The notes beneath the pieces were generated by a model. The model saw only the letters and a list, made by a program, of their open reading frames with translations. It had not been told where the DNA came from and made no database searches. DNA of 64,000 nt from a virus, in IMG/VR virus record IMGVR_UViG_3300036790_000408, positions 62,001 to 126,000 of that record; one strand, written 5' to 3'. The number at the start of each line of letters is the position of its first letter. Position 1 is the first letter of the stretch. Below, in pieces: positions 9,764 through 52,695 of the stretch. The translations under genes were made by a program, and so were the position numbers.

Positions 9764-10837
9764 TTAAGTGCGCTGGATGGCCACCACAGCATGCGCATAC
9801 GAGGCGCCCTTGGCGACGATGGTGTCGAACTGCACAGCCACGTACTGACCGGACAGGGCGGCCGGCAGACCAAGGCGGTAGAGCTGCGGATCAGGGTTCT
9901 GCGTCTGACCAGAGATGTACGGCCGCTCGATCATGCTCTCGGTCAGGATCGCCGCGTAATAGTTCTTGTAGCCGGAGGTCGGTGCGCCGAAACCGTAAGC
10001 CGAAGACGACGACGACGGTAGATATACGTCGGCGATGATCGGCAGCGGGCCAGCCTGGGTGTCGATGTTCTTGACGGTGACGCCGGCGACCACGGTAGAG
10101 CCCATGGTGATGTTCGTCGCCTTGGCCTCGGTATCGAGGTAGTGCCCAAGGATCGGGTTCATGTAGATCGCGGTCGGCTTCACTTTGAATGTGGTGTTCG
10201 CCATCATCTGTGCGACAGCGAACTTAATTCCATCGACCATGGAGGAGCCAGGCAGCACGCTGGACTGCTGGGTGATCTGTGTCAGCAGGCCGACATACTG
10301 ATCCGTGGTAGCCGTGGTCAGGGAGGTGTCGGTGCCGGTCCAATAAGCGGAGGCTGCCTCCACAATGATGCCGTTGACGCAATCCTGGATGTCGCGCGAC
10401 TCCAGGTTATCGAACACGCCCTGCTGTTGCGTGACCTGCACGTCGAAGAGGGTCAGGTTGATCTGGTTGACCAGCGCCTTGATCAGCACCGACCGCTCAA
10501 CGCGGGTCGGTCCAGACGGCGTCGGCGTCAGGTTCCTAGGATCGGTAAAGCCACCCAGCCCGATCAAGAGCTGCTCGATATAACGATGCGGGTGACCGGT
10601 GGCGCGGCGAGCCTGAATGCGCTGGCGCAGGACGCCCTCGCGGCGCACCATGTCCAGGATCTCACGCTCGTAGAGGTTCACCTCGATCGCGCCATTGCCG
10701 AAGAAGTCAGCAGCGGCGGCAACGCGCCCAAGGCTTGCGCTGTTGGAGACGGCGGACCCAAGTTGCGTCATGATCGGGTCGCCGCGGCCAGCCCAGCGCG
10801 CAATACCCACCCGATTAGAGTCGGCTATGGAGAGCAT
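9764..10837 (-). CDS. Major capsid protein (HK97-fold type)
   Basis: The product has 357 residues. It follows the protease-scaffold gene, the standard order. It shows an N-arm, a helical spine region (about 55-75) and an A-domain-like segment with IYMNPILGHYL and ERPYISGQTQNPDP, typical of HK97-like capsids in which the scaffold or delta domain is encoded separately. It should form the icosahedral shell. No cleavage site can be assigned by eye. Confidence 0.8.
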   Translation of the reverse strand: MLSIADSNRVGIARWAGRGDPIMTQLGSAVSNSASLGRVAAAADFFGNGAIEVNLYEREILDMVRREGVLRQRIQARRATGHPHRYIEQLLIGLGGFTDPRNLTPTPSGPTRVERSVLIKALVNQINLTLFDVQVTQQQGVFDNLESRDIQDCVNGIIVEAASAYWTGTDTSLTTATTDQYVGLLTQITQQSSVLPGSSMVDGIKFAVAQMMANTTFKVKPTAIYMNPILGHYLDTEAKATNITMGSTVVAGVTVKNIDTQAGPLPIIADVYLPSSSSSAYGFGAPTSGYKNYYAAILTESMIERPYISGQTQNPDPQLYRLGLPAALSGQYVAVQFDTIVAKGASYAHAVVAIQRT

Positions 10838-10880
10838 ATCAGAAACCCTTCTTTCGGGTGGTGGTGGGATTGGCGCTGGA

Positions 10881-12419
10881 TTAGTTCTGGTATGCCAACA
10901 GACCAGCAGAGGCGAATTGCTTCTTCAGGTCCATCCGGATCGAGAGATCCGTCACGCCGGCGTCGGCCAGGATCTTGTCGATCTTACCGACCGGGATGGT
11001 CTTGCCATCTTCCGGCAGTTCGATGCCGTACTTGTTGAGCGAGGCCATTACGTCGGAAGGAACCGTTTTGCGGGTCGGTTCCTGACGATCTGCATTCGAC
11101 GCCGCCGTGATGTCAGCGACCCTGGTCTGCATCGAGGACACCGCGTCGGCGAGCTGAGCGCTGACCTGGGTCAACTTCTCTTCCAGCGCTGTCTGACTGG
11201 CCTTGAGCGCCTTGTACTCCGGCGTCTCTTCAACCTTCTGCGCCTGCACGACGGGAGCGGCCGAAGCGAAATAACCAGAGTCGTGATAGGAGTCTGGGAT
11301 CTTGCCGCGGGCGCCGTCGGCACGCATCGAGTCTGCCATCCGGCGTAGGTGGTGAGCGTGACCATTGCCGGAGACGGAGCCAACGCCATCCTGCTCCATC
11401 TTCTCGGCAGCAGCTTCAAGGCGCATAGCGTGCGGCTCTACCTTGCTCATCGCGGCATTGACGGCCATGACGATGTTCGGGGCCTTCTGCAGCTCAGCGA
11501 GTGCGGCAGCCTGCGCAGCAAGAGCGTCCGTAATTGGCTTGAGGCTCTCGGCCAGGAGACCCTTAACGGCGTCTACAGCTTCAGTCATTTCGTGCTCCTG
11601 TGCAGCCGCAGCGGCCAATGAAGTGTTCATGTACGCAGCGTCGTTTTTCATGAGGATCGCCGCGCCGGTGAAGACGCAGGATCGAATGACGATCGGATCG
11701 CCCATGGGCTGATCGACCTTCAATTCCTGTGCTTCGAAAGAGAAACCGAGCTTGTCTTGCTCAAGGTGGATCTTGATAGCTTCGCGCGGGAAGTCGGCCG
11801 CATAGATGAAACCTTCGATCATCAGCGCATCGCCTTCGATGTGCGCGGATGAAATGAGGCCGATCTTGTTCTGTGCGTCGTGCCCGTTCAGCTCTTTGGT
11901 GATACCGATACCCATCCCCATCAGGGATGGCAGGGCACTCTCGGCAGCCGCCCTGGTCAGCATAATACGTTTGCCGAAAGCGCCATTTGGCGCGCGGTCG
12001 GACGGCGAGTCGATCCGGGTCAGAATGCCAGAGAACGGCATCCGGTTGGGATGCCCCTCGATCGTCGGCAGGTTGAGCGACACCGCCTCGAACCGCATGG
12101 CACTGATGGTCATCAGCATGGGGCGCGCGGGGATGTCGGCGGCGGGATTTTGCTCATCAGCTCCGGCATCGACCGAGATGCCAAACTTCTTGGCTGCGCG
12201 ATGAATGCGCGCCATGGCGCTTTTCTTCTCAGCCGGAGTTAGTCCCTCAGTCTGATTGAAACGCGCCAAGGCATTGCGCACATGAGCCGCATCATGGATC
12301 GGAAGTTTGCGCTTGCCCGGCACAGCGAACTGTTCGCTTCCGAGACTATCCCGATCCTTGGTGTCGAGAACCTTGGCATCGATGTCCTCGACTTCCTCGG
12401 GCTCGACTTCTGGCGGCAT
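10881..12419 (-). CDS. Prohead protease-scaffold fusion
   Basis: The product has 512 residues in three parts. Residues ~35-85 form a small helical module (HDAAHVRNALARFNQTEG) also seen at the start of other phage capsid proteases. Residues ~95-265 look like a capsid maturation protease (FSGILTRID, KIGLISSAHI, FPREAIKIH). The rest is a long Ala/Glu/Gln coiled coil that would act as internal scaffold and be degraded. The gene lies directly upstream of the major capsid gene. Fused protease-scaffolds are known in other phages. The catalytic residues were not pinpointed. Confidence 0.75.
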   Translation of the reverse strand: MPPEVEPEEVEDIDAKVLDTKDRDSLGSEQFAVPGKRKLPIHDAAHVRNALARFNQTEGLTPAEKKSAMARIHRAAKKFGISVDAGADEQNPAADIPARPMLMTISAMRFEAVSLNLPTIEGHPNRMPFSGILTRIDSPSDRAPNGAFGKRIMLTRAAAESALPSLMGMGIGITKELNGHDAQNKIGLISSAHIEGDALMIEGFIYAADFPREAIKIHLEQDKLGFSFEAQELKVDQPMGDPIVIRSCVFTGAAILMKNDAAYMNTSLAAAAAQEHEMTEAVDAVKGLLAESLKPITDALAAQAAALAELQKAPNIVMAVNAAMSKVEPHAMRLEAAAEKMEQDGVGSVSGNGHAHHLRRMADSMRADGARGKIPDSYHDSGYFASAAPVVQAQKVEETPEYKALKASQTALEEKLTQVSAQLADAVSSMQTRVADITAASNADRQEPTRKTVPSDVMASLNKYGIELPEDGKTIPVGKIDKILADAGVTDLSIRMDLKKQFASAGLLAYQN

Positions 12420-12423
12420 GAAA

Positions 12424-13134
12424 TTACGCCGGCGTGCCGGTGGCCGTCACGGTGCCCTTCAAGGTCAACGTGCCGCCCGCATTCAACGCCGCCACATTGG
12501 TGCCGGCGACCGTGAACAGCAGATCGGTGCCACCCGAGGCGATGGTAAGTTTGCCGGTCGAGCTCAGCAGGGTGGTCGCACCCTGGAACGTGGGGTTACC
12601 GTTGGTGTCCAACAGCGCCACGTTCAAGCCGTTTGACTGGTATTGCAATGCGTTGCCGATCTCCTGCACTTTGTCTGTGCCGAGCACAACCAGTGCGCCA
12701 CTCTGGATCCCTAGACGAGTAGCGGCAATGAGCGGTTGCCCGTTGATGGTGCCGATCTGCGAGCCTGGATCGATCGTCGAACCAGAGGAACCGGAGCCAC
12801 CGGTGGACGACAGCGTCAGGGCGTTCTGCAGGTAGCTGTTGAGAACGATGTTGACCGTGAGCGCGAGGAAGTTGCTCGGGACATCCGTCAGAACGGTCCA
12901 GTCCCAGTAGCAAATGAGATTGCCATTGGTCAGGGCGTCGAACATAGCGCCCTTGGTCAGCACACCACCAACCGGGCCGGTCGGGCCGGTGATCTGGGTG
13001 ACGCTCTGCGTCAGACCCGAGGCAGCCGTGCCCGTCAGGCTGACCGCTTCGCGCGTATAGGTGGTCGCCTCAGAGAAAACTCCGGCGTTGGTGATGCCGA
13101 TGCCGAGGGCGTACCAACCGGTGAAAACAGCCAT
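12424..13134 (-). CDS. Head fibre or decoration-like protein with collagen-like patch
   Basis: The product has 236 residues. The N-terminal domain includes ITGPTGPVGG and a segment TKGAMFDALTNGNLICYWDW, common in small phage surface proteins. The C-terminal half has repeated short strands (TLIPD-like turns, LDTNGNPTFQGAT) as in trimeric fibres. It lies between the portal/head cluster and the protease gene, so a capsid-surface fibre is more likely than a tail fibre. The family call is by resemblance. Confidence 0.5.
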   Translation of the reverse strand: MAVFTGWYALGIGITNAGVFSEATTYTREAVSLTGTAASGLTQSVTQITGPTGPVGGVLTKGAMFDALTNGNLICYWDWTVLTDVPSNFLALTVNIVLNSYLQNALTLSSTGGSGSSGSTIDPGSQIGTINGQPLIAATRLGIQSGALVVLGTDKVQEIGNALQYQSNGLNVALLDTNGNPTFQGATTLLSSTGKLTIASGGTDLLFTVAGTNVAALNAGGTLTLKGTVTATGTPA

Positions 13135-13997: not shown

Positions 13998-14288
13998 TTA
14001 GGAGAAGAGAAAAATCTCGATTGTCTCACCGGTAAGGTTGCCGGAAAGCGCAGCAACATTCAGCGTAAAACCGGTGTTGGTGGGGCTGCTGATGAAGGCG
14101 ACAGCGGCCTCCTTCATGCAGGGAATAGCGATATAGGGTGTTGGAACCGGCTCCGTCCAAGTGACTGCAACGGTCGCTGTGCTGGCACTTCCGGCATACG
14201 TCGCCGAGACTGAGCCGATGCAAATCCTATCCGCGAGGTTCGGCAGCAAGCCGTCCGGCGAATAGGCGGTATGAAAAGCTACGCCCAT
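13998..14288 (-). CDS. Small beta-rich virion protein
   Basis: The gene encodes 96 residues. Its ATG overlaps the portal stop (TGATG). The protein is made of Thr/Ala/Val strands (SVSATYAGSASTATVAVTWT) with no charged core, resembling head decoration proteins. Function is inferred from position only. Confidence 0.5.
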   Translation of the reverse strand: MGVAFHTAYSPDGLLPNLADRICIGSVSATYAGSASTATVAVTWTEPVPTPYIAIPCMKEAAVAFISSPTNTGFTLNVAALSGNLTGETIEIFLFS

Positions 14289-15745
14289 CAGGGATCTTCC
14301 TCGGGTTCGAATGATGCGGCCAGGCGCGGTGGCGCAGGCCGCGGATTGGCTCCTGCGGCAGGCTTCGCTGGACCCACGGTCGGCGGTTGCTGCGGTCTCG
14401 TCTTGTTGGAGGCGAGATCTGGATCGTCGATTACCGCTGTACCCTTGGCCGCCTGGATGGCGATGTCGGCGTCACTCTTGGTCATGTCACCCCAGGCATT
14501 CTCGGCCGGGGCTTCACCAAGCTTTCGGCGGATTTCGTTCGGGGTGAAAACGTTCGCGCCGTAGTACCGCGTCAGGATGGTGGAGGTCTTTTCCAGGTCT
14601 TCCCGCTCAACACCCTTCCACAAGAACCGAAGTTGAGAGAACCCAAGAGCACCCCAGACCACCTTGCGGGTGAGAGCGTTGGCCAGCACCGTTGCCATCG
14701 GCTTGATAGCGTGGATCCACTCTCGATCCTCACCAACTTCGGCCGTGCTCCGGTTGACGTCACGTTCCAGGTTCAGCGACATGTTCGAGATGTCGAACGC
14801 AGCCGCGACCTCGGTGCGAATGAATTCCTGGTATTGCAGATAGAGCGCTTTGTCGCCCTCAGGGTAGAGCTTCTGCACCGCCAACCCGCGAGTGCGCCCA
14901 GCCCCAGCCTGCCCGTCCACCAGTTCGGTGCCGATGATCGGGATCTTGCCCTGACCTTCGATCTCGTTGGTCCAGTACGTGCGCCACGTTTCGACCATGC
15001 GGGTCGAGACTTCGCCAAGGTCGATGGCGAACGGTGGCAGTGCGTTGCCGGCCAGCTTCGCGGCGAATGAGGCTGTGGCAAGCTGGTTCGAGATGCTCTG
15101 GAAGGCAACTTCGAGCGGGCCGTAGCCAAACGGCGAATGAGTCGATGGATTGGGTCGAATGTAAACGATCTCGTCGTCACGAAGCTTCACGCCGGGCTGC
15201 TGGCCTTGGGTGAAGTTGCCGCCATAGCCGAGCGTTTGTAGGTAGCGCGGCTCGTTCTTACCGCCCTTCCAGCCAGGGAAGATGTTGATCGACAAACCGT
15301 CCACCGGCCACAGGAACACCGGGCGATCCGGGAACTCTGACTTGCCAATCTCGATCACACCGGCGCCGAGACAGACATCGTTGATGACCTGGCTCAACAG
15401 GGTGTTGAAGCTGTCATCGTCGTTCGGCAAACTGAAACACAGCGTGGCGACTTCGATCTGTCGCCTGATCTCCGAGTTGGGCGATATGCCCTTGTTCGGA
15501 GCGATCTCCCACTCAAGCTGGGATAATGGGTTCTTAATCGTATTGATCGCGCGGCGGGCGATCGGCGTGTTGGAGAAATAGCGCAGGTTGCGCGGGGTTG
15601 GTTTGTAAACAACGCGACTGGATTGAGTGTACGCGTTCTGCCCAATCATGATCAGATTGGGGAAGGCGATCGACTCTCGTGTCGGCTCCTTGGTCGGTCG
15701 ACCCAAACGCCGGGGCCGCCAGGTGAAGATATCCTTGACTGCCAC
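14288..15745 (-). CDS. Portal protein
   Basis: The product has 485 residues. The GTG start at 15745 is preceded by GGAGGG at good spacing. The segment RVVYKPTPRNLRYFSNTPIARRAINTIKNPLSQLEWEI is characteristic of portal N-termini, and KSDADIAIQAAKG near the end fits the C-terminal crown region. Portals form the dodecameric DNA channel at one capsid vertex. It lies two genes after terL, as expected; the C-terminal ~50 residues are Pro/Ala-rich. Confidence 0.9.
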   Translation of the reverse strand: MAVKDIFTWRPRRLGRPTKEPTRESIAFPNLIMIGQNAYTQSSRVVYKPTPRNLRYFSNTPIARRAINTIKNPLSQLEWEIAPNKGISPNSEIRRQIEVATLCFSLPNDDDSFNTLLSQVINDVCLGAGVIEIGKSEFPDRPVFLWPVDGLSINIFPGWKGGKNEPRYLQTLGYGGNFTQGQQPGVKLRDDEIVYIRPNPSTHSPFGYGPLEVAFQSISNQLATASFAAKLAGNALPPFAIDLGEVSTRMVETWRTYWTNEIEGQGKIPIIGTELVDGQAGAGRTRGLAVQKLYPEGDKALYLQYQEFIRTEVAAAFDISNMSLNLERDVNRSTAEVGEDREWIHAIKPMATVLANALTRKVVWGALGFSQLRFLWKGVEREDLEKTSTILTRYYGANVFTPNEIRRKLGEAPAENAWGDMTKSDADIAIQAAKGTAVIDDPDLASNKTRPQQPPTVGPAKPAAGANPRPAPPRLAASFEPEEDP

Positions 15746-15767: not shown

Positions 15768-16286
15768 CTATGGCTTTATCGCACACGCCCAGTCTTGCCT
15801 CATGACCAGCACGTCGAACCGCGCATGGATTGCCTTGCGCCCGCCGACTGTATCCATGTCGTCAAATGCCATAACCCCGCCTGACACCATGCGCGGCCAG
15901 AAATTATCAATCACCGCCAGCACGCTTTGGTACTGGTCGCAGTCACAATGCACGAAGGCGACTTCCTGCACATCATCAGTCAGGGTGCTGGGGAAGACGC
16001 CGGCGTGAAAGATAGCGTCTGGAATGTAGGCCTGAACGTGCACCAGAGAGGTGTTGGAGAAATCCCCGACCTTGTGTGTATCGAAGTCCTCAGCGTGCGG
16101 CATACCAGAGAACGTGTCGTAGAGGTGTAGATCCCGCTTTTGCGTCCTGGCAACTCTGGATAGATACCAAGCCGATCCGCCCTGGAAAACGCCAACCTCG
16201 ACGAAGGCGCCGGGAGGCGCGTCGAAAGCGATACTGGTCAGACAGGCTATCCTGGCTTTGTGGATGACCGAATGTGGAGGTGTCAC
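15768..16286 (-). CDS. TylF/MycF-like SAM-dependent methyltransferase
   Basis: The product has 172 residues with a GTG start overlapping the terL stop (GTGA). The SAM-binding loop FVEVGVFQGGSAWYLSRV is followed by the metal/substrate-side motif FVHCDCDQYQSV and SGGVMAFDDMD, a pattern of the TylF family of O-methyltransferases, which act on sugars in antibiotic and glycan pathways. It is shorter than usual for the family. Finding it translationally coupled between terL and portal is odd. It may modify capsular or phage glycans, or be a passenger gene. The substrate is unknown. Confidence 0.72.
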   Translation of the reverse strand: MTPPHSVIHKARIACLTSIAFDAPPGAFVEVGVFQGGSAWYLSRVARTQKRDLHLYDTFSGMPHAEDFDTHKVGDFSNTSLVHVQAYIPDAIFHAGVFPSTLTDDVQEVAFVHCDCDQYQSVLAVIDNFWPRMVSGGVMAFDDMDTVGGRKAIHARFDVLVMRQDWACAIKP

Positions 16287-17851
16287 AGGAGGCGCGTTAT
16301 GATCGGATCGGCGGGGCGCGCAAAGGCGAGAACCAAACTATCCCCACGGTCAGGGCTGCGGCCGATACGTTCGATCAAGTCCTCCTTGTCCTCTACCTGC
16401 AGACCATTCGTTTTGTAGGTGTACCGCGGCGCGGTGAGGTCGTTGAGCAACTGGCGGTCGGGCGGAATGGCGAGGTCATCACCAAGATTGGGATCAAGAG
16501 CTTCTCGCAGTTTCCACCACCACTCAGTCTTCTTGCGGGTGAACCCAAGCTGTCCGCTCGAGTCCCTGGCAAAACTACTTTGCCTGGCATCCATCGCGTA
16601 GGCTTTGAGGCCAGAGGCTTTGGCCAAGTCATAGACGCTGGCGCCAATATTGATGACATCGATGTTGATCGAGGGCCGCTCGCCGGACGGGATCGCACCA
16701 GCGATCAGCTCCAGCACCCTGAAACCATCCGGCGTTTCGGTGCCGGGAAAGGTCATCTGCTCGTCAAACCAAGGTCCGTAACGGGCCGTAATTACGGTAT
16801 AGTCCTTGCCGCCGCGCGCCACGTCAACGCCGAGCGAGTCCATCCTGATCCGGGGATCGAGGTCTTCCTTCGGCTTCCAGCGCGCCTGTGCCTGCAACAC
16901 CCACTCAGTCGGAATGATCTGCCGCGGATGATCTTCGTGACCGACCAGGAAGTCGCCATGAAGCATCTGGCTTCGCAGCGGCTCCGGCATCGCCTGGAGC
17001 ACCGACATGTACCCGCTCTGCATGTAGACCGGATTGTCGGTCAGGCGAGCGCGAATGAATGTTCGGCTAAGCGGTTGAACCGGGTAAGGCTCGCCAGGGA
17101 CATAGATCAGCCCAGGGCCATCGACCTCGGTATCGATCATCCTGCCGGTTTTCTTGTCCTTGATCTGCGCGAACCAACGAAGTTCACCGTCAGCAGCAGG
17201 ACGAGAATGTTTCGGATCCAGCCAAGGTGACCAGAACGCGGTCACCCAGTAGCCCTCTTGGTTTGTCGGCGGGTTGCCAGTGGCCACCACGCGAGACCGC
17301 TGACCCCTTACGTCAGAGCGGTTCCAGCCCATCAAGAACCGGAACTGGCTCTCGTGAAAATGGGTGATCTCGTCGAAGCCCTTCAGGTCATGTGGGCGAC
17401 CCTGGTAGGCTTGTTCATCGCCGAGGATCTGGCAGGCGCCAAACTCTACCCGGCGCCGCTTCTCGCCAACCTTGAGCCGCCAGATTTCCTTTTGGCCATT
17501 GAAGGTGCCGAACGGCAGATAGAGCGTTTCCGCGCGCTCCCGGAGACCCTGTAGCTGCTTGAACGATCGTCTAAAAATAATAGACGAAGAATGTTCCGTG
17601 CCACTGAGTCCAAGAAGGAGATCGCTCTTGCCTCCGCCGGCTGCGCCGCCGAAGAATAGGATATCAGCCTTGCTCTCCATTGCCCGCGTCTGAGGGCCCG
17701 GGAACGGGGTCCAGATCAACGGCTCCGCTGATTTCGAGCGGCGCTCCATTTCGACCGACACCTCGGCCAAGAGCGTTTCCCTCTGTGAGGGATCTAAAGA
17801 CCGCAGCGAGCGCAGTATCGTCGAGGTTTCTGATTGTGATTGGCTCACCAT
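16283..17851 (-). CDS. terL: Terminase large subunit
   Basis: The product has 522 residues. The ATPase domain has Walker A GGAAGGGKS at residues 68-76, a Walker B-like LKGFDEIT and a coupling-type motif VVATGNPPT. The C-terminal nuclease begins at SLGVDVARGGKD. The enzyme packages DNA into the prohead through the portal. It starts at ATG 17851, or possibly ATG 17749, because the first ~34 residues are not typical. Either way it overlaps the terS reading frame by 86-188 bases. Confidence 0.93.
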   Translation of the reverse strand: MVSQSQSETSTILRSLRSLDPSQRETLLAEVSVEMERRSKSAEPLIWTPFPGPQTRAMESKADILFFGGAAGGGKSDLLLGLSGTEHSSSIIFRRSFKQLQGLRERAETLYLPFGTFNGQKEIWRLKVGEKRRRVEFGACQILGDEQAYQGRPHDLKGFDEITHFHESQFRFLMGWNRSDVRGQRSRVVATGNPPTNQEGYWVTAFWSPWLDPKHSRPAADGELRWFAQIKDKKTGRMIDTEVDGPGLIYVPGEPYPVQPLSRTFIRARLTDNPVYMQSGYMSVLQAMPEPLRSQMLHGDFLVGHEDHPRQIIPTEWVLQAQARWKPKEDLDPRIRMDSLGVDVARGGKDYTVITARYGPWFDEQMTFPGTETPDGFRVLELIAGAIPSGERPSINIDVINIGASVYDLAKASGLKAYAMDARQSSFARDSSGQLGFTRKKTEWWWKLREALDPNLGDDLAIPPDRQLLNDLTAPRYTYKTNGLQVEDKEDLIERIGRSPDRGDSLVLAFARPADPIITRLL

Positions 17852-18194
17852 TCTTACCCGTCAGTTCTTTGCGGGTAACTTCCTGCCAACCACCGAATTG
17901 CCGGAGCCATGCGAGCATCGCACGCATATCGCCGCCCATCGCGGCATTGACCAATCGAAGCGACACCGCGGCATAGACGTAGTCTTGGCCCATCGCTAGC
18001 TCGCTGCTGAACTGCTCCTGCAGCACGTCCTCGGTAATTCCCAGCATGTGAGCCATGGCCGGGATGGTCGCCTTGGTCGACGACATCATCCGAACTTGCA
18101 TAGCCCGCTTGCGGGCGAGTTCGGCGTCCTCTGGCGGCGGCCGGATCTTCTTTGGCCTGCCTCTGGGTCGACCGGTTACTTCACTGCGCGCCAT
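17664..18194 (-). CDS. terS: Terminase small subunit (putative)
   Basis: The product has 176 residues and lies just upstream of terL. A basic N-terminus (GRPRGRPKKIRPP) precedes an HTH-like segment (KATIPAMAHMLGITEDVLQE) and a helical oligomerisation region. This fits small terminases that recognise the packaging site. Its start lies inside the 3' end of the QueE-like gene (19-base overlap). The polar C-terminal tail overlaps the terL start by up to 188 bases in another frame. Confidence 0.72.
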   Translation of the reverse strand: MARSEVTGRPRGRPKKIRPPPEDAELARKRAMQVRMMSSTKATIPAMAHMLGITEDVLQEQFSSELAMGQDYVYAAVSLRLVNAAMGGDMRAMLAWLRQFGGWQEVTRKELTGKNGEPITIRNLDDTALAAVFRSLTEGNALGRGVGRNGAPLEISGAVDLDPVPGPSDAGNGEQG

Positions 18195-18823
18195 TGGCGA
18201 TATTCAGCCGCAGCCTCGACGCATTGACGAAAAATAGTGGACTCGGCGGTCGGCGCGGGACGCAGCCAGACCGGCTTATTCAAACCACCGAACATCGCCT
18301 TAGCCCTGCGAATGTCAGCGCTGTCCCGAATGGAAACCAGGATCTCGTCGGCCCGCTTGATCGTGTCGGGATGGATGCCAGCCCAGTCGCTCATGGTGTT
18401 GGCGCGCAGGGTGGTCCAGGATCCCTCGACGTCGGTTCTCACATGGCCAGTGGTGTCGATCTGCACTCGACAGCCGCCGGTGATCAGATCGCGCACCAGC
18501 ATGGTGAGGTCGTGACTGGCGGGCTCCGGACCGTGGATCACGATATGATAGCGGTGGTGAGTAAGAGCGAGTTTGGCCAACGTGCTTGGCCCAACATATG
18601 AAAACTCAGGGCCGTGGAATTTCTTTCCCAGCATCTTGTTGAGGCTGATTTCGTTCGACGGATCGTACTCCCAATCCGCGATCGGCTGGAGGGGTCCGTC
18701 TTTCCCGGTCGGTACATCGATCTCAGGGTTTTGCATCAGCCGGATCATTAGCGCCGGCACACCAGCCCATTGACCATCTGGCTGGATATTGAAGGTGACT
18801 GAGTTGACCGGCAGGGAACTCAT
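18176..18823 (-). CDS. QueE-like protein lacking the radical-SAM cysteines
   Basis: The product has 215 residues from ATG 18823, which overlaps the upstream stop (ATGA). From the start it follows E. coli-type QueE (7-carboxy-7-deazaguanine synthase): PVNSVTFNIQPDGQWAGVPA, then HIVIHGPEPASHDLTMLVRD and RVQIDTTGH, and KPVWLRPAPTAEST near the end. Where QueE has the CX3CX2C iron-sulfur motif this protein has NPEIDVPTG, with no cysteine, and the SAM-binding GGEP is GPEP. It should therefore not catalyse the radical reaction. It may have a binding role only. No other queuosine or deazaguanine genes are visible in the window. Confidence 0.75.
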   Translation of the reverse strand: MSSLPVNSVTFNIQPDGQWAGVPALMIRLMQNPEIDVPTGKDGPLQPIADWEYDPSNEISLNKMLGKKFHGPEFSYVGPSTLAKLALTHHRYHIVIHGPEPASHDLTMLVRDLITGGCRVQIDTTGHVRTDVEGSWTTLRANTMSDWAGIHPDTIKRADEILVSIRDSADIRRAKAMFGGLNKPVWLRPAPTAESTIFRQCVEAAAEYRQWRAVK

Positions 18824-20958: not shown

Positions 20959-21019
20959 ATCAACCATCCCCATTATGGTGGGGAGTTTTTACCACCCATA
21001 AAAGGCTCGTTCAAGAAAA

Positions 21020-39449: not shown

Positions 39450-39452
39450 GAC

Positions 39453-42445: not shown

Positions 42446-42448
42446 TCC

Positions 42449-43294
42449 ATGGCGTCACCCCTCCGACTGATCCGCACGAACCTGAACCGGCTCCTGGGAT
42501 CGGATGAAGAGCCGGCCGAGGTGCCCCTGGTCATCGACCGCATTGTCGGTGATGAGCAACCTGAGGCGCGCGTTCGGTCCAGCCTCGATCTGACCGGCAA
42601 GGATAAGCTGGTGATGGTCCTCGGTGCAGGATCGTCCGGCAAGACCACGCTGATGCGCTGGATCACAGAGCGCACTCTGAACGATGGCAGGGAGCTGTCG
42701 ATCGCCACCACCGATGTCGGTCGGGCGACCCTCCGTCGATTTTTTAAGGATGCTGACGGCCCCACCAATGAGGCGGGGATCAATCTCTGGCTCGAGGGCC
42801 TGTTCGGCTTCCTGATCCGGTCACCAATGACGGCCGCGGTCGATTTCCGCGCCGACATGACGCTGGTGCCGATCCTCGAAGGCGTACCCGATATGCACCG
42901 TATGTTGGAGCGCGCCGGGGTGCACCCGGTGGTGCTCTACATGCTGACACCGCGGGTCGAGGATTTGACCGTGCTGCGCGCCATGGAGGCGGTGGGGTTC
43001 CAGCCCAAGGCTACGGCGCTGGTGATGAACGTCGGTAAGGCGATCAACCCAGCCGACGCGATGGCTGAGTTTCGAGCGATTCGCGCGCACTCGCTGTTCC
43101 AGTCGGTGGTCAAGCGTGGCGCGGTGCAACTCTGGATGCCAAATCTCGTACCGGCCCGCGATATCGAGAACGCCGGTCTGTCGTTTACCGACACGCAAAA
43201 GCTAGAGACCGAGCCAGTGACCGCATCGCGGACGTTCCACTGGCTGCGCGAAATGGAGATGGCCTTTGACCCGATCGCCACCTGGCTCCCCTAA
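42449..43294 (+). CDS. StbB/VirC1-like P-loop ATPase
   Basis: The product has 281 residues. Walker A VLGAGSSGKTTL has G59-T67. The remainder resembles StbB/VirC1-type ParA relatives encoded next to oriT and relaxase genes, which position or recruit the transfer DNA. The signature lysine of true ParA Walker A (KGGxGKT) is missing. It follows the 42074 gene by 3 bases. Confidence 0.68.
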   Translation: MASPLRLIRTNLNRLLGSDEEPAEVPLVIDRIVGDEQPEARVRSSLDLTGKDKLVMVLGAGSSGKTTLMRWITERTLNDGRELSIATTDVGRATLRRFFKDADGPTNEAGINLWLEGLFGFLIRSPMTAAVDFRADMTLVPILEGVPDMHRMLERAGVHPVVLYMLTPRVEDLTVLRAMEAVGFQPKATALVMNVGKAINPADAMAEFRAIRAHSLFQSVVKRGAVQLWMPNLVPARDIENAGLSFTDTQKLETEPVTASRTFHWLREMEMAFDPIATWLP

Positions 43295-43682
43295 CCCTGT
43301 CGTCGAGTTTCCCGCCGCCAAACAGGCGATCGTCGGCCGGCTGCTGACGGCGGATCCTCTCAAGCCGGTTATCGACAGCCTGCACACAGCCCTCGACAAA
43401 TTAGAGGCGGCCGAACAGCGTGCCAACGATAAGAACGACGCAGCCTCCGACAAGGCTATGCGCGACATCCTCAAACGACTTCCAGCAGCGGTGGATAAAT
43501 TATGCCTAGAGATGTACTGGAACAAGGTAGTGGCGGCCGGTTTCGTCTTGATATTCGGCTGCTCGATTGGCTTTGGGATCGGCTGGTACTTCGGCCACGA
43601 TCCGTGGGTGATCACTCGCTGCGACGTACAAGAGGGAGCAAACATCTGCTCGGGGTGGATGTCGACGCCAATCAGCAGGTAG
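43266..43682 (+). CDS. Membrane-anchored helical protein (third gene of the stability module)
   Basis: The product has 138 residues from a TTG at 43266 that overlaps the ATPase gene by 29 bases. A helical region (LEAAEQRANDKNDAASDKAM) is followed by one membrane helix (VVAAGFVLIFGCSIGFGIGW). It could anchor the ATPase to the membrane; this is inference from order. Confidence 0.5.
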   Translation: MTRSPPGSPNPVVEFPAAKQAIVGRLLTADPLKPVIDSLHTALDKLEAAEQRANDKNDAASDKAMRDILKRLPAAVDKLCLEMYWNKVVAAGFVLIFGCSIGFGIGWYFGHDPWVITRCDVQEGANICSGWMSTPISR

Positions 43683-45704: not shown

Positions 45705-46121
45705 ATGATGGAAGAATTTAGGCCAACGATCTGCATCGACTTCGATGGCGTAATCCACAGCTATGAGCGTGGATGGCAAGACGGCGTAATCTATGGGGAG
45801 GTCGTTCCAGGCTTCTTCGAGTGGGTTGAAACAGTGCGCGATCGGGTCTCGTTGGTGATCTACTCATCAAGGTCAAAGTCAGATGAGGGCGTGCTGGCAA
45901 TGGGCATCTGGCTGCATGAGAAACGCAACGCCTGGATCATGGGCGGTGGTCATCGCGATCCAATCAAACCTCTCACGTTCGAATTCGCGCACGAGAAGCC
46001 GGCAGCTTGGCTCACGATAGACGATCGCGCCATATGCTTTCGCGGCGACTGGGCGGCGCCAGAGTTGACCAAATCTGCAATCCTCGCGTTCAAGCCATGG
46101 AATGCCAGGAAAACGAAATAA
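45705..46121 (+). CDS. HAD-superfamily phosphatase-like protein
   Basis: The product has 138 residues. The catalytic loop [16 protein letters not shown] (nucleophile Asp in DFDG) and [11 protein letters not shown] fit small phage HAD hydrolases. A typical DD motif appears in [10 protein letters not shown]. The substrate is unknown, perhaps nucleotides or 5'/3' nucleic acid ends. Confidence 0.75.
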
Positions 46122-46133
46122 CCGGAGGAACCA

Positions 46134-46325
46134 ATGAAATTCGGCATGAGAACGCCCAGCCTGAAAAAACGCCTTGCCGCGCGCACCTCGTGGAAGCGCT
46201 ACGTGCGGCACTCTCTCGGCTTCAAGGCGCCGCGTGGCTGGGGATGGATAACAAATCCCAAACGAGCCGCCTATAACCGGGTGTATCATCGCACGACGTT
46301 CGACATCTTCCGGTTCTTTCGCTAG
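46134..46325 (+). CDS. Conserved small basic phage/plasmid protein
   Basis: The product has 63 residues with RTPSLKKRLAARTSWKRYVR and GWGWITNPKRAAYNRVYHRT, a pattern shared by short proteins in phages of many bacteria. A CCGGAGGA ribosome-binding site lies ~6 bases upstream. Function is unknown. Confidence 0.6.
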   Translation: MKFGMRTPSLKKRLAARTSWKRYVRHSLGFKAPRGWGWITNPKRAAYNRVYHRTTFDIFRFFR

Positions 46326-46396
46326 TAGCTTGAAACGAGCCGGCCAATCTCTTAACCTCAAGGCGCACAGCCAAAAACCCATCGAAGGGAACGAAC

Positions 46397-46744
46397 ATGA
46401 CCATCAAGTCAACGCTCATCGTCTCGGCTCTGGCTATCGCTCTCCCGCTCGCCCCTGCGCTCGCCGGCGGTAATGGCGGCCATGGAGGCACCGTTGTCGT
46501 CCATGGGAATGGCGGCTGGCACGGCGGATACGCGGGTCATCCCTATTATGGCGGAGGCTGGCACGGTGGCGGCGGTGGATGGGGCTGCGGATGGGGCTGC
46601 GGTCTCGGGGTTGGCGCTGGCGTCGCGGCCCTCGGTGCGCTCGCATGGGGACTGGCTACGCCCGGTTATGGTTACGCCCCACCCGTTGTTGTCCGTCAGC
46701 CGCAGTTGGTGTGCAATCAGTTCGGGCAGTGCTGGTATCAGTGA
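46397..46744 (+). CDS. Secreted glycine-rich protein
   Basis: The product has 115 residues with a signal peptide (PLAPALA-GG). The mature part is Gly/His/Trp/Tyr-rich (GGWHGGYAGHPYYGGGW) with a short hydrophobic segment. Two Cys lie in CNQFGQCW at the end. Such proteins occur in envelopes of alphaproteobacteria. Confidence 0.55.
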   Translation: MTIKSTLIVSALAIALPLAPALAGGNGGHGGTVVVHGNGGWHGGYAGHPYYGGGWHGGGGGWGCGWGCGLGVGAGVAALGALAWGLATPGYGYAPPVVVRQPQLVCNQFGQCWYQ

Positions 46745-48103
46745 TCAGGCTGCCGGGATCGACGCCATCCGCGTCAAAGCCTCGCTTACGTCCCTGATGA
46801 CCGACTCCCAATCTCCGGGGGTCGGTTGACGCCATAGCCGCGCGGTCGGATACCATTCCGAGTGCAATCCCTGCATCCCCCAGCGCCACTCTGACGGCTT
46901 CGCCAGCATGATCCAGGTCGGTTTGCCCAGCGTCGCGGCGAGGTGTCCCACCGCAGTGTCGACCGTAATCACCAGATCGAGGTTCAGAATGTGCTCGGCG
47001 GTATCCTGCCATCCCCTGACGCCGGTCAAGAGCTTCACGTCCGCCCCCAGCGCCGCCGTCTCCTCCTCGGTCTGATCCAACTGCAGGCTATAGAAGGCGC
47101 ATTTCGGCGAAGCTAGTAGGCGAAGTATCTGCCGCACCTGCATTGATCGGCGCGCATCAGCCCGATGTTCCTTGCGCCCATGCCAGCATATCCCCACCTT
47201 CAAACAATCAGCCGGCTCGGTGTAAAAAAACATGTCGCGCCTAGCTTTGACGCGACGATCTTCGACCTTGAAGTCGGTCGGCGGCGGCAGCAATTTCGTG
47301 CCGTAGATCATTGGCAGATCGATCATACCGACATGCATGGCGTGCGGCGGAAATTCCCGAAACTGCGAAATAACCCGGTTTTTCGGAAATGCACGCACGA
47401 ACATCTTCGTGATCTCCGGGCAACTGGCGATGACAACGTCACTACACTGCTCGTTGACGTAGGGGATGAAGCGCGAGAACTGGATGCAGTCGCCAAACCC
47501 GCCCTCGGTCATGACGATCAAAGTGCCGTTGCGCAGCCTTTGCCCGGCCCACTCTGCGCTACAGGGCCGCGGGTCGATGCCGGTGAACACCTTCTTGCGC
47601 CAAGCATACTCGCGCCATCCTGGCTCGTACTCGCGGCGGTGGAGCAACAGCTCGCCCATCGCCATATGCGCCCTGGGATTGGTCCAGTCATGAGCTAAGG
47701 CTCGGAGGATCAGGGCTTCTGAGCGCTGGCTGCAATCGTCCTGGCTGATGTTGGCAGCCGCGATGGCCATGTTGACAAGACCGTCCACGTCAACCACATC
47801 GAGCTGCTGTGCGATGTCGCCGCAAACCAGACATCCGGTATAATTATGCAGGTAGAAGTGGGATTTGCTGAGGGCCCACCACCATACTCCCTGACGCTGG
47901 TCGATCGCGATCGCTTTGTCATAGAATTTGACCGCTTCAAGCCATTCCCCCTTACAGTGATGGATGTCGGCCAACATGGCAAAGACCTGTGGGTTGTCGC
48001 CCATAGCCTCCAGCATATCCTCACATATACCCCGAGCCTCGCCATAGTGTTTGCGCTCGATCGCGACGCTGACCTTGTCGTACGACAGCAGATCGAGGTC
48101 CAT
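46745..48103 (-). CDS. TPR-containing glycosyltransferase (GT9/heptosyltransferase-like)
   Basis: The product has 452 residues from ATG 48103 overlapping the giant-gene stop (TGATG). Residues ~1-190 form TPR-like helix pairs (YGEARGICEDMLEAM, EWLEAVKFYDKAIAID). The C-terminal part has GGFGDCIQFSRFIPYV, CWHGRKEHRADARRSM and DLVITVDTAVGHLAATLGK, the nucleotide-sugar site of GT9/SPINDLY-like transferases. Coupled to the adhesin gene, it may glycosylate that protein or a pilus or tail component. Confidence 0.82.
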   Translation of the reverse strand: MDLDLLSYDKVSVAIERKHYGEARGICEDMLEAMGDNPQVFAMLADIHHCKGEWLEAVKFYDKAIAIDQRQGVWWWALSKSHFYLHNYTGCLVCGDIAQQLDVVDVDGLVNMAIAAANISQDDCSQRSEALILRALAHDWTNPRAHMAMGELLLHRREYEPGWREYAWRKKVFTGIDPRPCSAEWAGQRLRNGTLIVMTEGGFGDCIQFSRFIPYVNEQCSDVVIASCPEITKMFVRAFPKNRVISQFREFPPHAMHVGMIDLPMIYGTKLLPPPTDFKVEDRRVKARRDMFFYTEPADCLKVGICWHGRKEHRADARRSMQVRQILRLLASPKCAFYSLQLDQTEEETAALGADVKLLTGVRGWQDTAEHILNLDLVITVDTAVGHLAATLGKPTWIMLAKPSEWRWGMQGLHSEWYPTARLWRQPTPGDWESVIRDVSEALTRMASIPAA

Positions 48104-51100
48104 CAGGTAAACAGCCCCACCGACTGCCGCACCATAAGCCCGAGACTGGCTTGGTCGGCGCTGGACATCGTTCCAGAGTAAATTGCAAATGCGCCCATCA
48201 CCGGCAGCGCATTGCCGCCAGGCTGATTGAGGTAATTCGACACCGACGCGCCCCAGCCACAGGTCGTGCAATCGAACGCCGTGGTGTCGGTGATCGTGCC
48301 GGCCTGCATCGCCCCGCCGTTCAATTGCCAGGAGAACGAGGCGCCATTCTTGACTAGAGTGCTGCTGCCCCATTGGCTCGACGTCAAACCGACACTCGGG
48401 CTGACGAATTCACCGGAAGCGGCATCGTCGTACTGTGCGGCGAACTGGCCGGCGTGCCAACGTCCAGCGGTCAGATAATTGACCGTGCTGCTGGTCAGCC
48501 ACGAGCCCCAGAGCAGCCCAGCGCCGTAACCCGCATTCACCCCACCATCGACCGTGACATCGACATAGAAGGCCTGCGCGATCACGTACGCCCCAGTGGT
48601 CATGTTGGTCGTGTTCGGCAGGGTGATCAGCGGATCGTTGACGTTGTTCGGGCTGTTCCCGACCGTGCCGGCAGTGAAAAAATTCGCGTTCGGGTCCAAC
48701 TGATTGTCGAGGATGCTGGTCGGCGTCATTTTCACCAGCGAGCGCAGGCCGTCAGAGCCGCTGGTGCGCTGCATCGGCGCCGCGGGGCCTACGGCAGCCT
48801 TGGCGAGATTGAACGCCTGTGGCGCCTGCGTAAGGGCTGGCGGCACACTGGCAATCGGCGCCGGCGGCAGATCGAGTGGGCCCAGCACCATGAACCGGCC
48901 GGAGCCATACGCGTCGTTGATCTGCAGCACGTTGCCGTTCTGATCGAGCGTCGTGCAAGCCGGATTGGCCGGATCGAAATAGAACAGCAGTCCCGCGCCC
49001 GATACCACGTTCGGCGTGAACGCGGAGACAGTGAACGCGCCCATCTTGCCGACGACGGACGGGATCTGAGTGTCGCGGATTTGGCAATAACCGGCTGGAA
49101 TGGACTGGGCTGGCAGGCCGGCGGCGTAGGTGGCGCTGCCGGTGTACGTGTTCTGGTTTAGGCCAAGATTTGCCGCCGGGATCGTGCTCCAGGTCGCGCC
49201 GTTGTTGAAGGTGACATCGATCGACGTCGGAATGCCGCCAACCCAGATGAAGTTGAGCGGGATCGGCTGATTAGCCACCTGCTGATTGAGCGTGAACAGC
49301 GTAAAGGCGTAATTGAGCAGCGTTTGGTTGAGGATGGTGACGCCAACCGGCCTGGTGGTCGTATTGACCGTGCCGTCACTCCAATCGACCGTCAGCGTCT
49401 TGCCGGCGGACAATGCCCAGTTGCCCGGCGCCGCGGTCCAAGTGCCGTTGGTTTGCGGCTGAAGTTGGATCGGACCGCCGGGAACCGATGCGAGATCCAC
49501 GATACCGCCGCCGGTAACCGAGTCTGTGTTGACCGTAAAACTGACCGATCCGGTGATCGGCGCGCTGGCGCTGACCGTGGTATCCTCGATCAACAGCGTA
49601 TTGGTGCCCAGCGCGGCACAGGACATCGGCACGGTGAGGATTTGCCCGGTCGCGTCCCAGGTCGGCGTCGCTGAAGCGACCGATACCGCCAACGGCGCCC
49701 CCGGTGTCGGCACGGTCGAATTGCCACCAGCCGTGGCGCCGGCCTGCGTCACGAAAGATACCTGCGCCGAACGAATGCCGCTGTCGCTGGTATCGAATAT
49801 CTGGAAGCTCCAGGTTGTTGCGGTATTGAAATTGAAAGTGAACGTCGCAAGCTGGCCGGTGCTGTCCCAGGTAATCGTTCCGTTGTTGGAGAGGCCGGTT
49901 GAGAACGCGGTGACGGTGGTCCCATTGACAACGGTGGTCGGACTGGCGTCAGGCGGAGTGTAGAAAAGATTGTTCCGATTTGGAACGTAATTGAACCCGA
50001 CCTGGATGCTGAATGGCGTTCCGGTCTTCTGATTGGGAATGGAGGCCGGCACGGTGATCGTCGCACCTGGTGGCAGGATGCAATAATTGGCCAGCGCGGT
50101 CGGCGTGCCGCCAGTGGTGCCGACCTCGATCAGGATGTTGTTCTGCGGCGTGCCGGCGGGGGCTGATGGATTGTTAGCTTGATAGTTGAAGCCGACCTCA
50201 ACCGCGCAGGCTTGCCCCTGAAGCTGATCTGGTATGGTCGGAAAGGTGATCGTCGCCGCCGCCGAGTTATTGACCGTGGTCGCCGCCAGATTGGCGTTGG
50301 TCGAATAGTACATCGTCGAGGCAACGAGGTTCGGCGAGCCATTGACGGGGGTGTTGCCGGTGCCGGTCGAGCTCCCGGCCGGAGCCGGAGCGGTCAGGTT
50401 CATTGTCGCCGAGAACGAGCCGCCGGATAGCTTCGCCAGCACCACGATCGGTGAAGTGGCGAGATTGTACTGGCTCGGGGCCCAGGCCAGCCAAATGTTC
50501 GAAATGGTGCCGGTGTACGAGCCGCTGATCAGTTGCGAGCCGGCGACCAGTGGGCTCGGCACGTTGACCGTGACCGATGGCGCGATCACCACCGGATTGA
50601 GCAGAGACGTGAGGGCCGCGCTGTTCGCCGTGGCCAGGGTCACGTGGCCGGCTGGCGTCGGGTAGATGTTGCCCGATTGAAGCTGACCATTGGTCCGCAT
50701 CGCCGCGGCAAATGTGCCGCCATGATCCACCGTCTGAATGTTGCTGCCGGCGGTATTCGCTTGAGCGACCGCGGCGAGCAGGCAAGTGACGTACGTGGCG
50801 CCGGTAGCGAATGCGGTCGAGTCCTCCAGGCCAAACGGGATTTCCAGCACGATAAGCGTCGCGGTCGAGGATGCCGCTCGGAGCGCGGCGAATGCGGCGA
50901 CCATTCTGGCCTGTAGCGTGGCCACAGCAACCGCCGCGGTGCAGTCGGCTTCGGCCAGACAGATCCAGATCACGTTGGGCGGGGTGTTCGCCGCTCCCTG
51001 GGCACTGATCAATCCACTCACGAGACCAGTCTGCCCGGCCGGGTCGACCAAATCCCATAGGCTGTTTCCCGTCGCGGCATAGTACTGCAGCCCGGTTTCG

Positions 51101-52695
51101 CCCGAGGTGACCGTCCAGCCATCGCCGTTCGAGGCCTGCACTGCGACATCCCAGTTGGTGAAGCCAAGGCTCTTGGCCATCAGGAACGGGTAAGCGTTGG
51201 TGGCAAATGTGCCGTTCGGCTGCATCAAGCCGTCGCCGACCATCAGCATCCATTTCGATGGGGTGGCAGGGGCGGTGCCCGAGGTCGAGCCGCTGTCGAT
51301 CACCGCGCTGGTGAGCGTGATGTGGGTCAGGGCCTCACTGTCTTCCGACAGGTAAATCCGCACCCAGTTGGCGCCGCTGTTCACTAGCCCAGTCAGAACC
51401 TTGAGCACGGTGCCGCCGGTCAGTGCCACGCCCTGGCTGACGATCGCGCCATTGATCAGGATATCGAACAGCGGTGTGCCGCCGGTCGAGGCGACGTTGT
51501 AAAACAGCGTTGCGGCCGAGCTTCCGGTGAAGGAGAAGTCCCAGAACGCCCCGCACCATGAAGTGGACATCGATGCCGCCGGCGCGCGGCCAGTGCTGCT
51601 GTACCAGTTGTATGGGGAGAAACGAAAAGATTTATCGGTGGGCGCAACCGTCGTCGTCGTGCCCGCGACAGCGACGTAATTGATCGTCAGGACACCAGAC
51701 TGGATACCGCTCGATGCGCTTGAAACGGCGATGATGTGGGTCGCCAGCGTGTTGCCGGCGCTGGTCAGGGCGATAGTCGCGGTCAGGTTGTTGTTTGACA
51801 GCGTGACGGTGCCAACCGGCGTCGAGTACGCTATCGCTTCGGTGGTCAGACCAACACTGATCAGCACGTCCGCCACGCTGGCGAACGGGCCGCCTGTCGC
51901 GGTCACCACCACGGTGAGCGGCTTGGTCACTGTCGCCGGGTTAGGCGTCGCCACCGGCGTGCTGATGGCGGTCATCGGGTTGGTCACCACCGTGCCGCCG
52001 TCGAGGTTGGTGTACCCGGTCTGCGGATAGGTTAGGGATTGCCCGGAGCCGCCGCCAAGACAGGTCACGGTGAAGCCGCCGAGCCACCAGCCAAGAGTCC
52101 GGAACGTGATGGTCTCGCCGGCAAAGGCGGCGATGCTGAACGTGCCGGTATTGTAGCCGCTGGTGGTGACCGGAGAGCCACTCTCGATGATGGTGACTTC
52201 GCCGTTGCTGTCGTGATAAATCCATGAAATCAGGTTATCGACCCGATCGACCAGCATGGTTAGAATGCCGTTGGCGTGCCAGATGGACGGCGCGGCATTG
52301 ATCGGAAGATTGTAGGGTGAGCTGGTGAATTTGCCGGCGACCGGGTCCACATCGCCCTGTGGGTCAGCTAGAATGGCTCCTGTGTTACCACCCTCGTCGT
52401 GCAGGGAAATGCCCAGGTTGTAGGACATCAGTATGTTGTTGCTGAGATTTCCGACCTGGCAGATGCCGATTTCGAGCGCGCTCTGCAGGAAAGCGTAACT
52501 GCCGGGTGGGGTGCCGAGCTTGAACTCCATCTGCGTTTTCTGGCCGGCGGGGAAGGTCTGCGCGCCGACCGCCCCGGTGACATTGGAACTCGGGTTGGTC
52601 GCATTCTGCGTGCGCCCCGGGTTGGGATCCGTGCAAACGTTCCCGGATGGGCTCCAGGAGGTGTTATCGAACGAGGTGGTCGACCATGTGGCCAT
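48103..52695 (-). CDS. Giant tail-fibre/adhesin-like protein with degenerate SGNH domain and lectin-like tip
   Basis: The product has 1530 residues. The first ~230 are beta-rich, followed by Ig-like strands. Residues ~480-700 resemble an SGNH (GDSL) esterase, but block I reads VGDGLMQ (G489 replaces the Ser nucleophile) and block III lacks Asn; the final His (H684, TPAGH) is kept. Ig-like repeats (~700-1250) precede a C-terminal ConA-like region (GRWHAGQFAAQYDD, FVSPSVGLTSSQW) typical of phage receptor-binding tips. No signal peptide is present, so a virion protein is more likely than a secreted adhesin. Confidence 0.78.
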   Translation of the reverse strand: MATWSTTSFDNTSWSPSGNVCTDPNPGRTQNATNPSSNVTGAVGAQTFPAGQKTQMEFKLGTPPGSYAFLQSALEIGICQVGNLSNNILMSYNLGISLHDEGGNTGAILADPQGDVDPVAGKFTSSPYNLPINAAPSIWHANGILTMLVDRVDNLISWIYHDSNGEVTIIESGSPVTTSGYNTGTFSIAAFAGETITFRTLGWWLGGFTVTCLGGGSGQSLTYPQTGYTNLDGGTVVTNPMTAISTPVATPNPATVTKPLTVVVTATGGPFASVADVLISVGLTTEAIAYSTPVGTVTLSNNNLTATIALTSAGNTLATHIIAVSSASSGIQSGVLTINYVAVAGTTTTVAPTDKSFRFSPYNWYSSTGRAPAASMSTSWCGAFWDFSFTGSSAATLFYNVASTGGTPLFDILINGAIVSQGVALTGGTVLKVLTGLVNSGANWVRIYLSEDSEALTHITLTSAVIDSGSTSGTAPATPSKWMLMVGDGLMQPNGTFATNAYPFLMAKSLGFTNWDVAVQASNGDGWTVTSGETGLQYYAATGNSLWDLVDPAGQTGLVSGLISAQGAANTPPNVIWICLAEADCTAAVAVATLQARMVAAFAALRAASSTATLIVLEIPFGLEDSTAFATGATYVTCLLAAVAQANTAGSNIQTVDHGGTFAAAMRTNGQLQSGNIYPTPAGHVTLATANSAALTSLLNPVVIAPSVTVNVPSPLVAGSQLISGSYTGTISNIWLAWAPSQYNLATSPIVVLAKLSGGSFSATMNLTAPAPAGSSTGTGNTPVNGSPNLVASTMYYSTNANLAATTVNNSAAATITFPTIPDQLQGQACAVEVGFNYQANNPSAPAGTPQNNILIEVGTTGGTPTALANYCILPPGATITVPASIPNQKTGTPFSIQVGFNYVPNRNNLFYTPPDASPTTVVNGTTVTAFSTGLSNNGTITWDSTGQLATFTFNFNTATTWSFQIFDTSDSGIRSAQVSFVTQAGATAGGNSTVPTPGAPLAVSVASATPTWDATGQILTVPMSCAALGTNTLLIEDTTVSASAPITGSVSFTVNTDSVTGGGIVDLASVPGGPIQLQPQTNGTWTAAPGNWALSAGKTLTVDWSDGTVNTTTRPVGVTILNQTLLNYAFTLFTLNQQVANQPIPLNFIWVGGIPTSIDVTFNNGATWSTIPAANLGLNQNTYTGSATYAAGLPAQSIPAGYCQIRDTQIPSVVGKMGAFTVSAFTPNVVSGAGLLFYFDPANPACTTLDQNGNVLQINDAYGSGRFMVLGPLDLPPAPIASVPPALTQAPQAFNLAKAAVGPAAPMQRTSGSDGLRSLVKMTPTSILDNQLDPNANFFTAGTVGNSPNNVNDPLITLPNTTNMTTGAYVIAQAFYVDVTVDGGVNAGYGAGLLWGSWLTSSTVNYLTAGRWHAGQFAAQYDDAASGEFVSPSVGLTSSQWGSSTLVKNGASFSWQLNGGAMQAGTITDTTAFDCTTCGWGASVSNYLNQPGGNALPVMGAFAIYSGTMSSADQASLGLMVRQSVGLFT

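Follow-up and report, generated by a model that had tools for sequence, protein, structure and literature searches.

The sorting of mobile genetic elements follows their mode of spread: phages move in particles, plasmids and integrative and conjugative elements (ICEs) by mating. The element considered here, IMG/VR virus record IMGVR_UViG_3300036790_000408 (134,436 bp), carries genes for both: the 64-kb window that was analysed (record positions 62,001-126,000, to which all coordinates refer unless marked 'record') holds virion genes of a myovirus beside a type IV secretion system (T4SS) of the VirB/VirD4 type and a MobF relaxase. The best reading of these genes is that of a conjugative phage or phage-plasmid, a combination that appears to have arisen more than once.

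Among described elements, phage-plasmids (P1-like and others) share with this one a phage structural set on an extrachromosomal circle that lacks an integrase. They blur the distinction between modes of persistence, but have been described as moving as viruses and as gaining conjugation only with the loss of phage functions (PMC10879196), a relaxase or an origin of transfer (oriT) being absent from all but two of the intact P1-like members (PMC10879196), and conjugation functions are described as acquired by phage-derived plasmids after phage-gene loss (PMC10879196, PMC12977533, PMC11652158). The phage-plasmid surveys and reviews searched contain no description of a whole mating-pair formation (MPF) system in such an element, and no phage with VirB4, VirD4, relaxase, terminase and sheath was met in the open-access literature, a weak form of evidence given that preprints and most subscription papers lie outside it. 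The element here differs from phage-plasmids in having a whole VirB/VirD4 system with a relaxase, and in that no RPA-type Rep or ParA was found on it. An acetobacterial phage-plasmid, RHOApd of Rhodovastum atsumiense, with sheath, wedge and other tail proteins about 28-37% identical to those here, likewise differs in having no annotated T4SS. The nearest precedent is Phi1207.3, a conjugative prophage of Streptococcus pyogenes whose transfer is reported to fit conjugation, by a mechanism left unexplained there (PMC4260502; see also PMC5154133); it is an integrated prophage for which the paper mentions no relaxase, whereas in the element here the transfer genes are explicit.

On the plasmid side, the MPF_T/MOB_F conjugative plasmids of Acetobacteraceae and Azospirillaceae, p3-AD3 of Roseomonas and pSR-4 of Skermanella, have a virB1-B11/virD4 operon convergent with mobF and an stb-like cluster divergent from mobF, as here, and between the two a hairpin motif, for which there is a candidate here. 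Their transfer regions are without virion genes, whereas here the module adjoins a myovirus set and, unlike in either plasmid, extra genes separate mobF from the stb-like genes. In plasmid R388, stbABC adjoins oriT (PMC3098194); the common features are three genes, an ATPase-like middle gene and a place beside the transfer origin of a MobF system, a likeness of position and P-loop rather than a family match to StbB.

Virion genes and transfer genes on one record

The first and last 127 bases of the record are identical by sequence comparison, and this exact end repeat closes it into a circle of 134,309 bp, although a virion genome with circularly permuted ends could also give such a map; assemblers, too, commonly use a word length of 127. 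GC content stays between 0.54 and 0.64 across the whole record, codon usage agrees between the transfer and virion modules, and the tetranucleotide distance between them (0.188) is close to that within the virion module (0.178). A search of the whole record found no tyrosine integrase (Phage_integrase domain), and no chromosomal genes were recognised on it. The features of an integrative element, an integrase and chromosomal flanks, were thus not encountered; there is one small serine recombinase (20,422-20,973, minus strand; Pfam Resolvase 3e-34, phrog_125), of resolvase/invertase type, that sits between the virion and transfer modules.

The virion genes occupy the minus strand at about 22-82 kb of the record, and profile searches place a myovirus set of terminase, portal, contractile sheath, tape measure and baseplate on the one element, with open and complete open reading frames (ORFs). 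At the terminase end lie the small subunit TerS (17,664-18,089; 49% identical to an ORF at the matching place in L010, a 4.6-kb IMG/VR contig with relatives of TerS, TerL and portal), the large subunit TerL (16,283-17,851; phrog_979 1.9e-41, Walker A GAAGGGKS, 72% identical to that of L010 and 46% to that of Bordetella phage BPP-1) and the portal protein (14,288-15,745; phrog_2662 3.2e-32, 71% to the portal of L010). A head protein (12,424-13,134; phrog_240 2e-4), a head-tail adaptor (8,123-9,046; phrog_442 9e-4), the tail sheath (4,268-6,223; phrog_23 1.1e-26) and the tape-measure protein (82-2,463; phrog_28 1.4e-15, Pfam PhageMin_Tail 1e-4) follow on the same strand, the sheath being 31.5% identical to that of Komagataeibacter phage phiKX1 over 48% of its length. 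A baseplate wedge is also on the record (phrog_6), as are large fibronectin-repeat tail or fibre proteins of 253-2769 amino acids (aa) and a baseplate-spike-like protein. Three further minus-strand genes are candidates: the major capsid protein (9,764-10,837; position and look of the sequence), the tail tube (3,762-4,253; placed between tape measure and sheath, with no family match) and a protease/scaffold (10,881-12,419; DUF6582 N-terminus, Pfam 1e-13, phrog_16160; role by position upstream of the capsid). The capsid candidate (357 aa) had no match among phages, PHROGs, Pfam or the PDB, hhalign gave it no support, and its single-sequence AlphaFold2 model was unusable, with a mean predicted local distance difference test score of 32.

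The transfer genes run on the plus strand from 21,497 to 34,105 as VirB1-B6, B8-B11 and VirD4, in Ti/Acetobacteraceae order. They begin with a VirB1-like lytic transglycosylase (21,497-22,126; Pfam SLT, homologous to the SLT gene of the Roseomonas and Skermanella T4SS and to Ti VirB1), a VirB2 pilin (22,123-22,440; position, with a weak Pfam TrbC match of 7e-4, below gathering), VirB3 (22,441-22,797; Pfam VirB3 2e-10) and the VirB4 ATPase (22,784-25,267; Pfam 3e-21, NCBIfam PRK13853 6e-186, Walker A GHTGLGKS). VirB5 (25,264-26,694; Pfam T4SS 2e-8, TIGR02791) has a long C-terminal extension and is followed by a small protein with a signal-like start (26,691-27,029), which holds the position of Eex-type genes in plasmid loci and is 31% identical to a gene at the corresponding place in another viral contig, G005. 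Next come VirB6 (27,032-27,901; Pfam TrbL 2e-15), VirB8 (28,190-29,047; Pfam VirB8 2e-26), VirB9 (29,044-29,946; Pfam CagX 2e-29), VirB10 (29,943-30,986; Pfam TrbI 5e-32) and the VirB11 ATPase (31,252-32,271; Pfam T2SSE 8e-24, NCBIfam PRK13851 4e-100, Walker A GATGAGKT). VirD4 is encoded in two parts, an N-terminal membrane part with a TTG start (32,268-32,669; its homologue in Skermanella VirD4 is the stretch of residues 3-117, E 7e-8) and an ATPase part (32,669-34,105; Pfam T4SS-DNA_transf 1e-84) that matches residues 124-580 of the same protein. The Walker A motifs of VirB4, VirB11 and VirD4 are intact.

Convergent to virB/virD4, on the minus strand, lies the MobF relaxase-helicase (36,042-39,449; NCBIfam NF041492, 133 bits against a cut-off of 100). 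When it is aligned with relatives from plasmids and phage contigs, its catalytic YY (37-38) and HTH (352-354; H352/H354) positions do not vary; the closest annotated relative is mobF of a Roseomonas mucosa plasmid (50% over 80%), and deposited phages gave no match. Divergent from it, on the plus strand at 42,074-43,682, is a three-gene cluster homologous to that beside mobF of the Roseomonas plasmid. It comprises a mobilization accessory gene in the stbA position (42,074-42,445; with homologues next to mobF both in Roseomonas, as an unannotated ORF, and in G005), an StbB-like P-loop ATPase (42,449-43,294; 28% identical to the Roseomonas plasmid gene at 5e-18, 37% to that of G005 and 26% to that of a further contig, G007) and, by gene order, a small membrane protein in the stbC position (43,266-43,682). 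The 205-bp divergent gap contains, on the relaxase strand, a candidate oriT-like hairpin, AAAGACAATATGCATCGCGATGCTGAG (41,916-41,942, minus strand). In the Roseomonas and Skermanella plasmids and in G007, the interval from the stb-like genes to mobF contains AGACCA-(T/A)(T/G)GCA with a hairpin after it, and G005 has a variant; the hairpin motif beside mobF is kept in six of seven alphaproteobacterial plasmids tested, and the pattern occurs in the corresponding gap and strand in 4/5 plasmids outside its definition, the background rate being about 0.03 per kb per strand. In its exact form the plasmid motif, ACAGACCAAGGCA, is absent here, and mismatched matches to it occur at chance level only.

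Beyond the transfer genes lies a second fibre module. A 1530-aa fibre-like protein (48,103-52,695, minus strand) contains segments paralogous to parts of the 2769-aa fibre in the virion cluster (38-41% identity, 1e-14), and the adjoining TPR-glycosyltransferase (46,745-48,103, minus strand; Pfam TPR and Glyco_transf_9) has a paralogue in the virion-side region at record 38,658-39,989 (31% identity, 7e-38). Phage-type modules consequently flank the transfer block on both sides, and the paired glycosyltransferases possibly serve fibre glycosylation. Myovirus genes and a conjugation system thus share one element, as a sequence-only reading had proposed, on the evidence of profile searches and of a contig that closes through its 127-bp repeat. 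Other parts of that reading need adjustment. The virion block begins before position 9,764, from which it had been drawn, with tail genes continuing leftwards outside the window at record 21-62 kb; the giant fibre-like protein does have segments in common with the 2769-aa fibre, but Pfam gives its supposed lectin-type tip no lectin domain; and the transfer block, which seemed to be inside the phage genome, does have the terminase end of the virion cluster on one side and the second fibre module on the other, but is not strictly inside on a circle.

Recurrence in other viral contigs and origin of the transfer module

A scan of IMG/VR with a VirB4 alignment found four other records (G004-G007), all four with a terminase and three with both a MobF/TrwC relaxase and VirD4. 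Given that IMG/VR contigs are chosen as viral, a terminase is expected, and the informative point is the presence of both gene sets on one contig. On G005 (106.8 kb), genes for portal, major head protein, sheath, tape measure and wedge accompany VirB1-B11-type genes, an intein-bearing VirD4 and MobF; by gene content it is another full myovirus equipped with a full T4SS. In G004 (60.5 kb) VirB genes, VirD4 and MobF lie between terL and portal, which read the opposite way. G006 and G007 have a common backbone, with up to 60% identity, and the capsid, portal and protease of G007 match the Rhodovastum phage-plasmid; in both of them, as in G005 and the element here, the T4SS points away from the side on which the terminase lies. 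A scan with a MobF alignment added G008, with TerL, portal and MobF on one contig, and G010, which has a weak portal homologue, fibre homologues, stb-like genes and a MobF that is 63% identical to the relaxase here and truncated by the contig end. The arrangement, sought in other genomes, is therefore present in independent contigs, in G004 with the block between terL and portal, and its occurrence on at least four further independent viral contigs suggests a type of element that recurs and has largely gone undescribed. Close relatives were sought with single proteins, among viral contigs by VirB4, portal, relaxase and capsid and among genome contigs by a portal alignment and TerL, and these scans returned nothing or L010-L012 only. 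In deposited phages the VirB4 matches were four unannotated gut contigs, the longest without a match to the virion genes here, and these were set aside as a precedent.

In the relaxase tree the relaxase here is sister to that of the Roseomonas plasmid (100/100), and the G008 relaxase is sister to that of Pararoseomonas (95/97). Supported branches force at least three changes between phage and plasmid in this tree and at least two in that of VirB4, in a small sampling; as phage-borne and plasmid sequences interleave in both, transfer modules have probably been captured repeatedly. A single origin for all phage-borne transfer modules is disfavoured by the same trees, repeated exchange, in one direction or the other, being more likely. 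Relatives of the relaxase, tail and sheath suggest that the host is probably Rhodospirillales/Acetobacteraceae-like. Each module also occurs separately elsewhere, the transfer module on the Roseomonas and Skermanella plasmids and related tail genes on the Rhodovastum phage-plasmid, and such separate occurrence is normal modular evolution rather than the mark of two chromosomal neighbours.

Lysis, replication and accessory genes

The left arm of the record carries phage-type replication and recombination genes, namely DnaB (with an intein), ERF, SSB and a dCMP deaminase, and a weak phage-lysozyme match on the record is a likely lysis gene. A subtilase-family protease (record 26,313-27,320) adjoins the likely lysis genes. 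The DnaB intein is of LAGLIDADG type and sits at the P-loop (gene at record 10,592-13,048); the P-loop of the G005 VirD4 (88,232-91,111 of that contig) holds a related intein, 34% identical to it. Beside terS are a small protein with a weak QueE-like match (18,176-18,823), 39% conserved in L010, and a ParB-like/N6-N4 DNA methyltransferase (18,820-20,118, minus strand; phrog_498 1.7e-111), the latter also adjoining the terminase in G006 and G007 (44% to both). In or beside the mobilization region are a DUF1643 protein (34,405-35,136), an RlaP-type nucleotidyltransferase (39,453-40,226) and an HNH endonuclease (41,110-41,868); a DUF1643 gene is near mobF on the Skermanella plasmid too. In the 2769-aa fibre-like protein (record 45,836-54,145), repeats that by eye resemble glycoside-hydrolase modules lie between fibronectin-like repeats. 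The small-gene arm contains three kinds of intergenic repeat: one of 29 bp with a ribosome-site-like stretch and a start codon (61,250-61,278, 61,547-61,575 and 62,287-62,315), one of 77 bp that is promoter-like (60,899-60,975 and 63,386-63,462) and one of 47 bp that is hairpin- or terminator-like (61,205-61,251 and 63,904-63,950). No tRNAs were found in the window, and an Rfam search of it gave no matches.

Proposed life cycle, alternatives and meaning

In light of these findings, the element is probably a circular, extrachromosomal, temperate-type, contractile-tailed phage of a Rhodospirillales/Acetobacteraceae-like host, with a captured plasmid-type MPF_T/MOB_F module. From the gene content we infer dual transmission, and with it lysogeny, packaging and mating. 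In a carrier cell the circle would replicate by its own phage-type replication genes and be kept without integration, the stb-like genes presumably helping its inheritance. On induction, TerS and TerL would package the circle into a myovirus particle, which the lysis gene would release. Alternatively, MobF may nick the oriT-like site near 41.9 kb, which has the relaxase side on one flank and the stb-like genes on the other, and VirD4, as two chains, with VirB1-B11 may pass the strand to a contacting neighbour, so that the element would have two horizontal routes. Whether the contigs as a whole form a recurrent class of conjugative myophages, mainly alphaproteobacterial, moving by particles and by VirB/VirD4 mating after repeated capture of MOB_F/MPF_T modules beside or inside the terminase-portal region, is an evenly balanced question.

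Several points weigh against this reading. Particles and mating are predictions from gene content, and the other records, all of them linear fragments, come from a collection selected for being viral. The virion set proposed from the sequence is supported for TerS, TerL, portal, sheath and tape measure; capsid and tube are candidates assigned by position only, as is the protease-scaffold role. To call the conjugation system complete was slightly too strong: VirB1-B6, B8-B11, VirD4 and MobF are present, but a VirB7 lipoprotein was not recognised in the transfer block, and virD4 is split into two ORFs, with a frame change exactly at the border between membrane and ATPase parts and a TAATG overlap. 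VirD4 may work as two chains, or the split may reflect recoding, an error of sequencing or a genuine lesion; if the halves do not cooperate, mating would depend on a helper. To take in the site here the oriT pattern had to be relaxed, and the site therefore stands as a candidate only. Finally, searches of the whole record for an RPA-type replication initiator and for a ParA-type AAA_31 protein found neither.

Some of these points would also suit a decaying hybrid of phage-plasmid and plasmid in which one route, conjugation or particle formation, is already dead and spread is by the other only. The virD4 split would be a sign of it, in published cases P1-like phage-plasmids have become mobilizable plasmids after phage-gene loss (PMC10879196), and hybrids are described as frequently defective in their phage functions (PMC12977533). 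However, all other T4SS ORFs and the ATPase motifs are intact, the virD4 halves overlap at a domain border as TAATG, the virion genes are open and complete, and the combination recurs in divergent elements; decay of this kind is accordingly an unlikely account, if one to be taken seriously.

Considerably less probable is that the T4SS serves protein export into neighbours, attachment or the exclusion of rivals, with spread solely as a phage. VirB-type systems can export proteins, and the long extension of the VirB5 candidate would suit such a role; against this, the MobF relaxase, the stb-like genes and the oriT-like hairpin are retained together, as on conjugative plasmids. It is very improbable that assembly fused a phage with a conjugative plasmid present in the same sample. 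A single metagenomic record whose end overlap has a common assembler word length invites the suspicion, but the circle is closed, the composition uniform and the paralogues on both sides, and the same combination, often in the same orientation, is found in other records. Similarly, although each of the modules has relatives of its own, a prophage and an ICE adjacent in one chromosome can be dismissed almost entirely given a closed 134-kb circle without a tyrosine integrase or recognised chromosomal genes and, in G004, a transfer block that interrupts the head-gene order. Closure, uniform composition and flanking paralogues together make both artefacts unlikely, and these two explanations, which the sequence-only reading had named as its refutation, are disfavoured by the circle, the composition, the missing integrase and the recurrence.

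If the reading of the element as a conjugative phage or phage-plasmid is true, an element that keeps both transport systems in several unrelated lineages would break the sorting of mobile elements by particle or mating. The possible range of gene transfer would be wider, phage genes would bypass the barriers of receptor and adsorption, and plasmid genes would gain survival outside cells. Further, such an element would offer a direct test of whether the particle and mating modes are regulated as alternatives.

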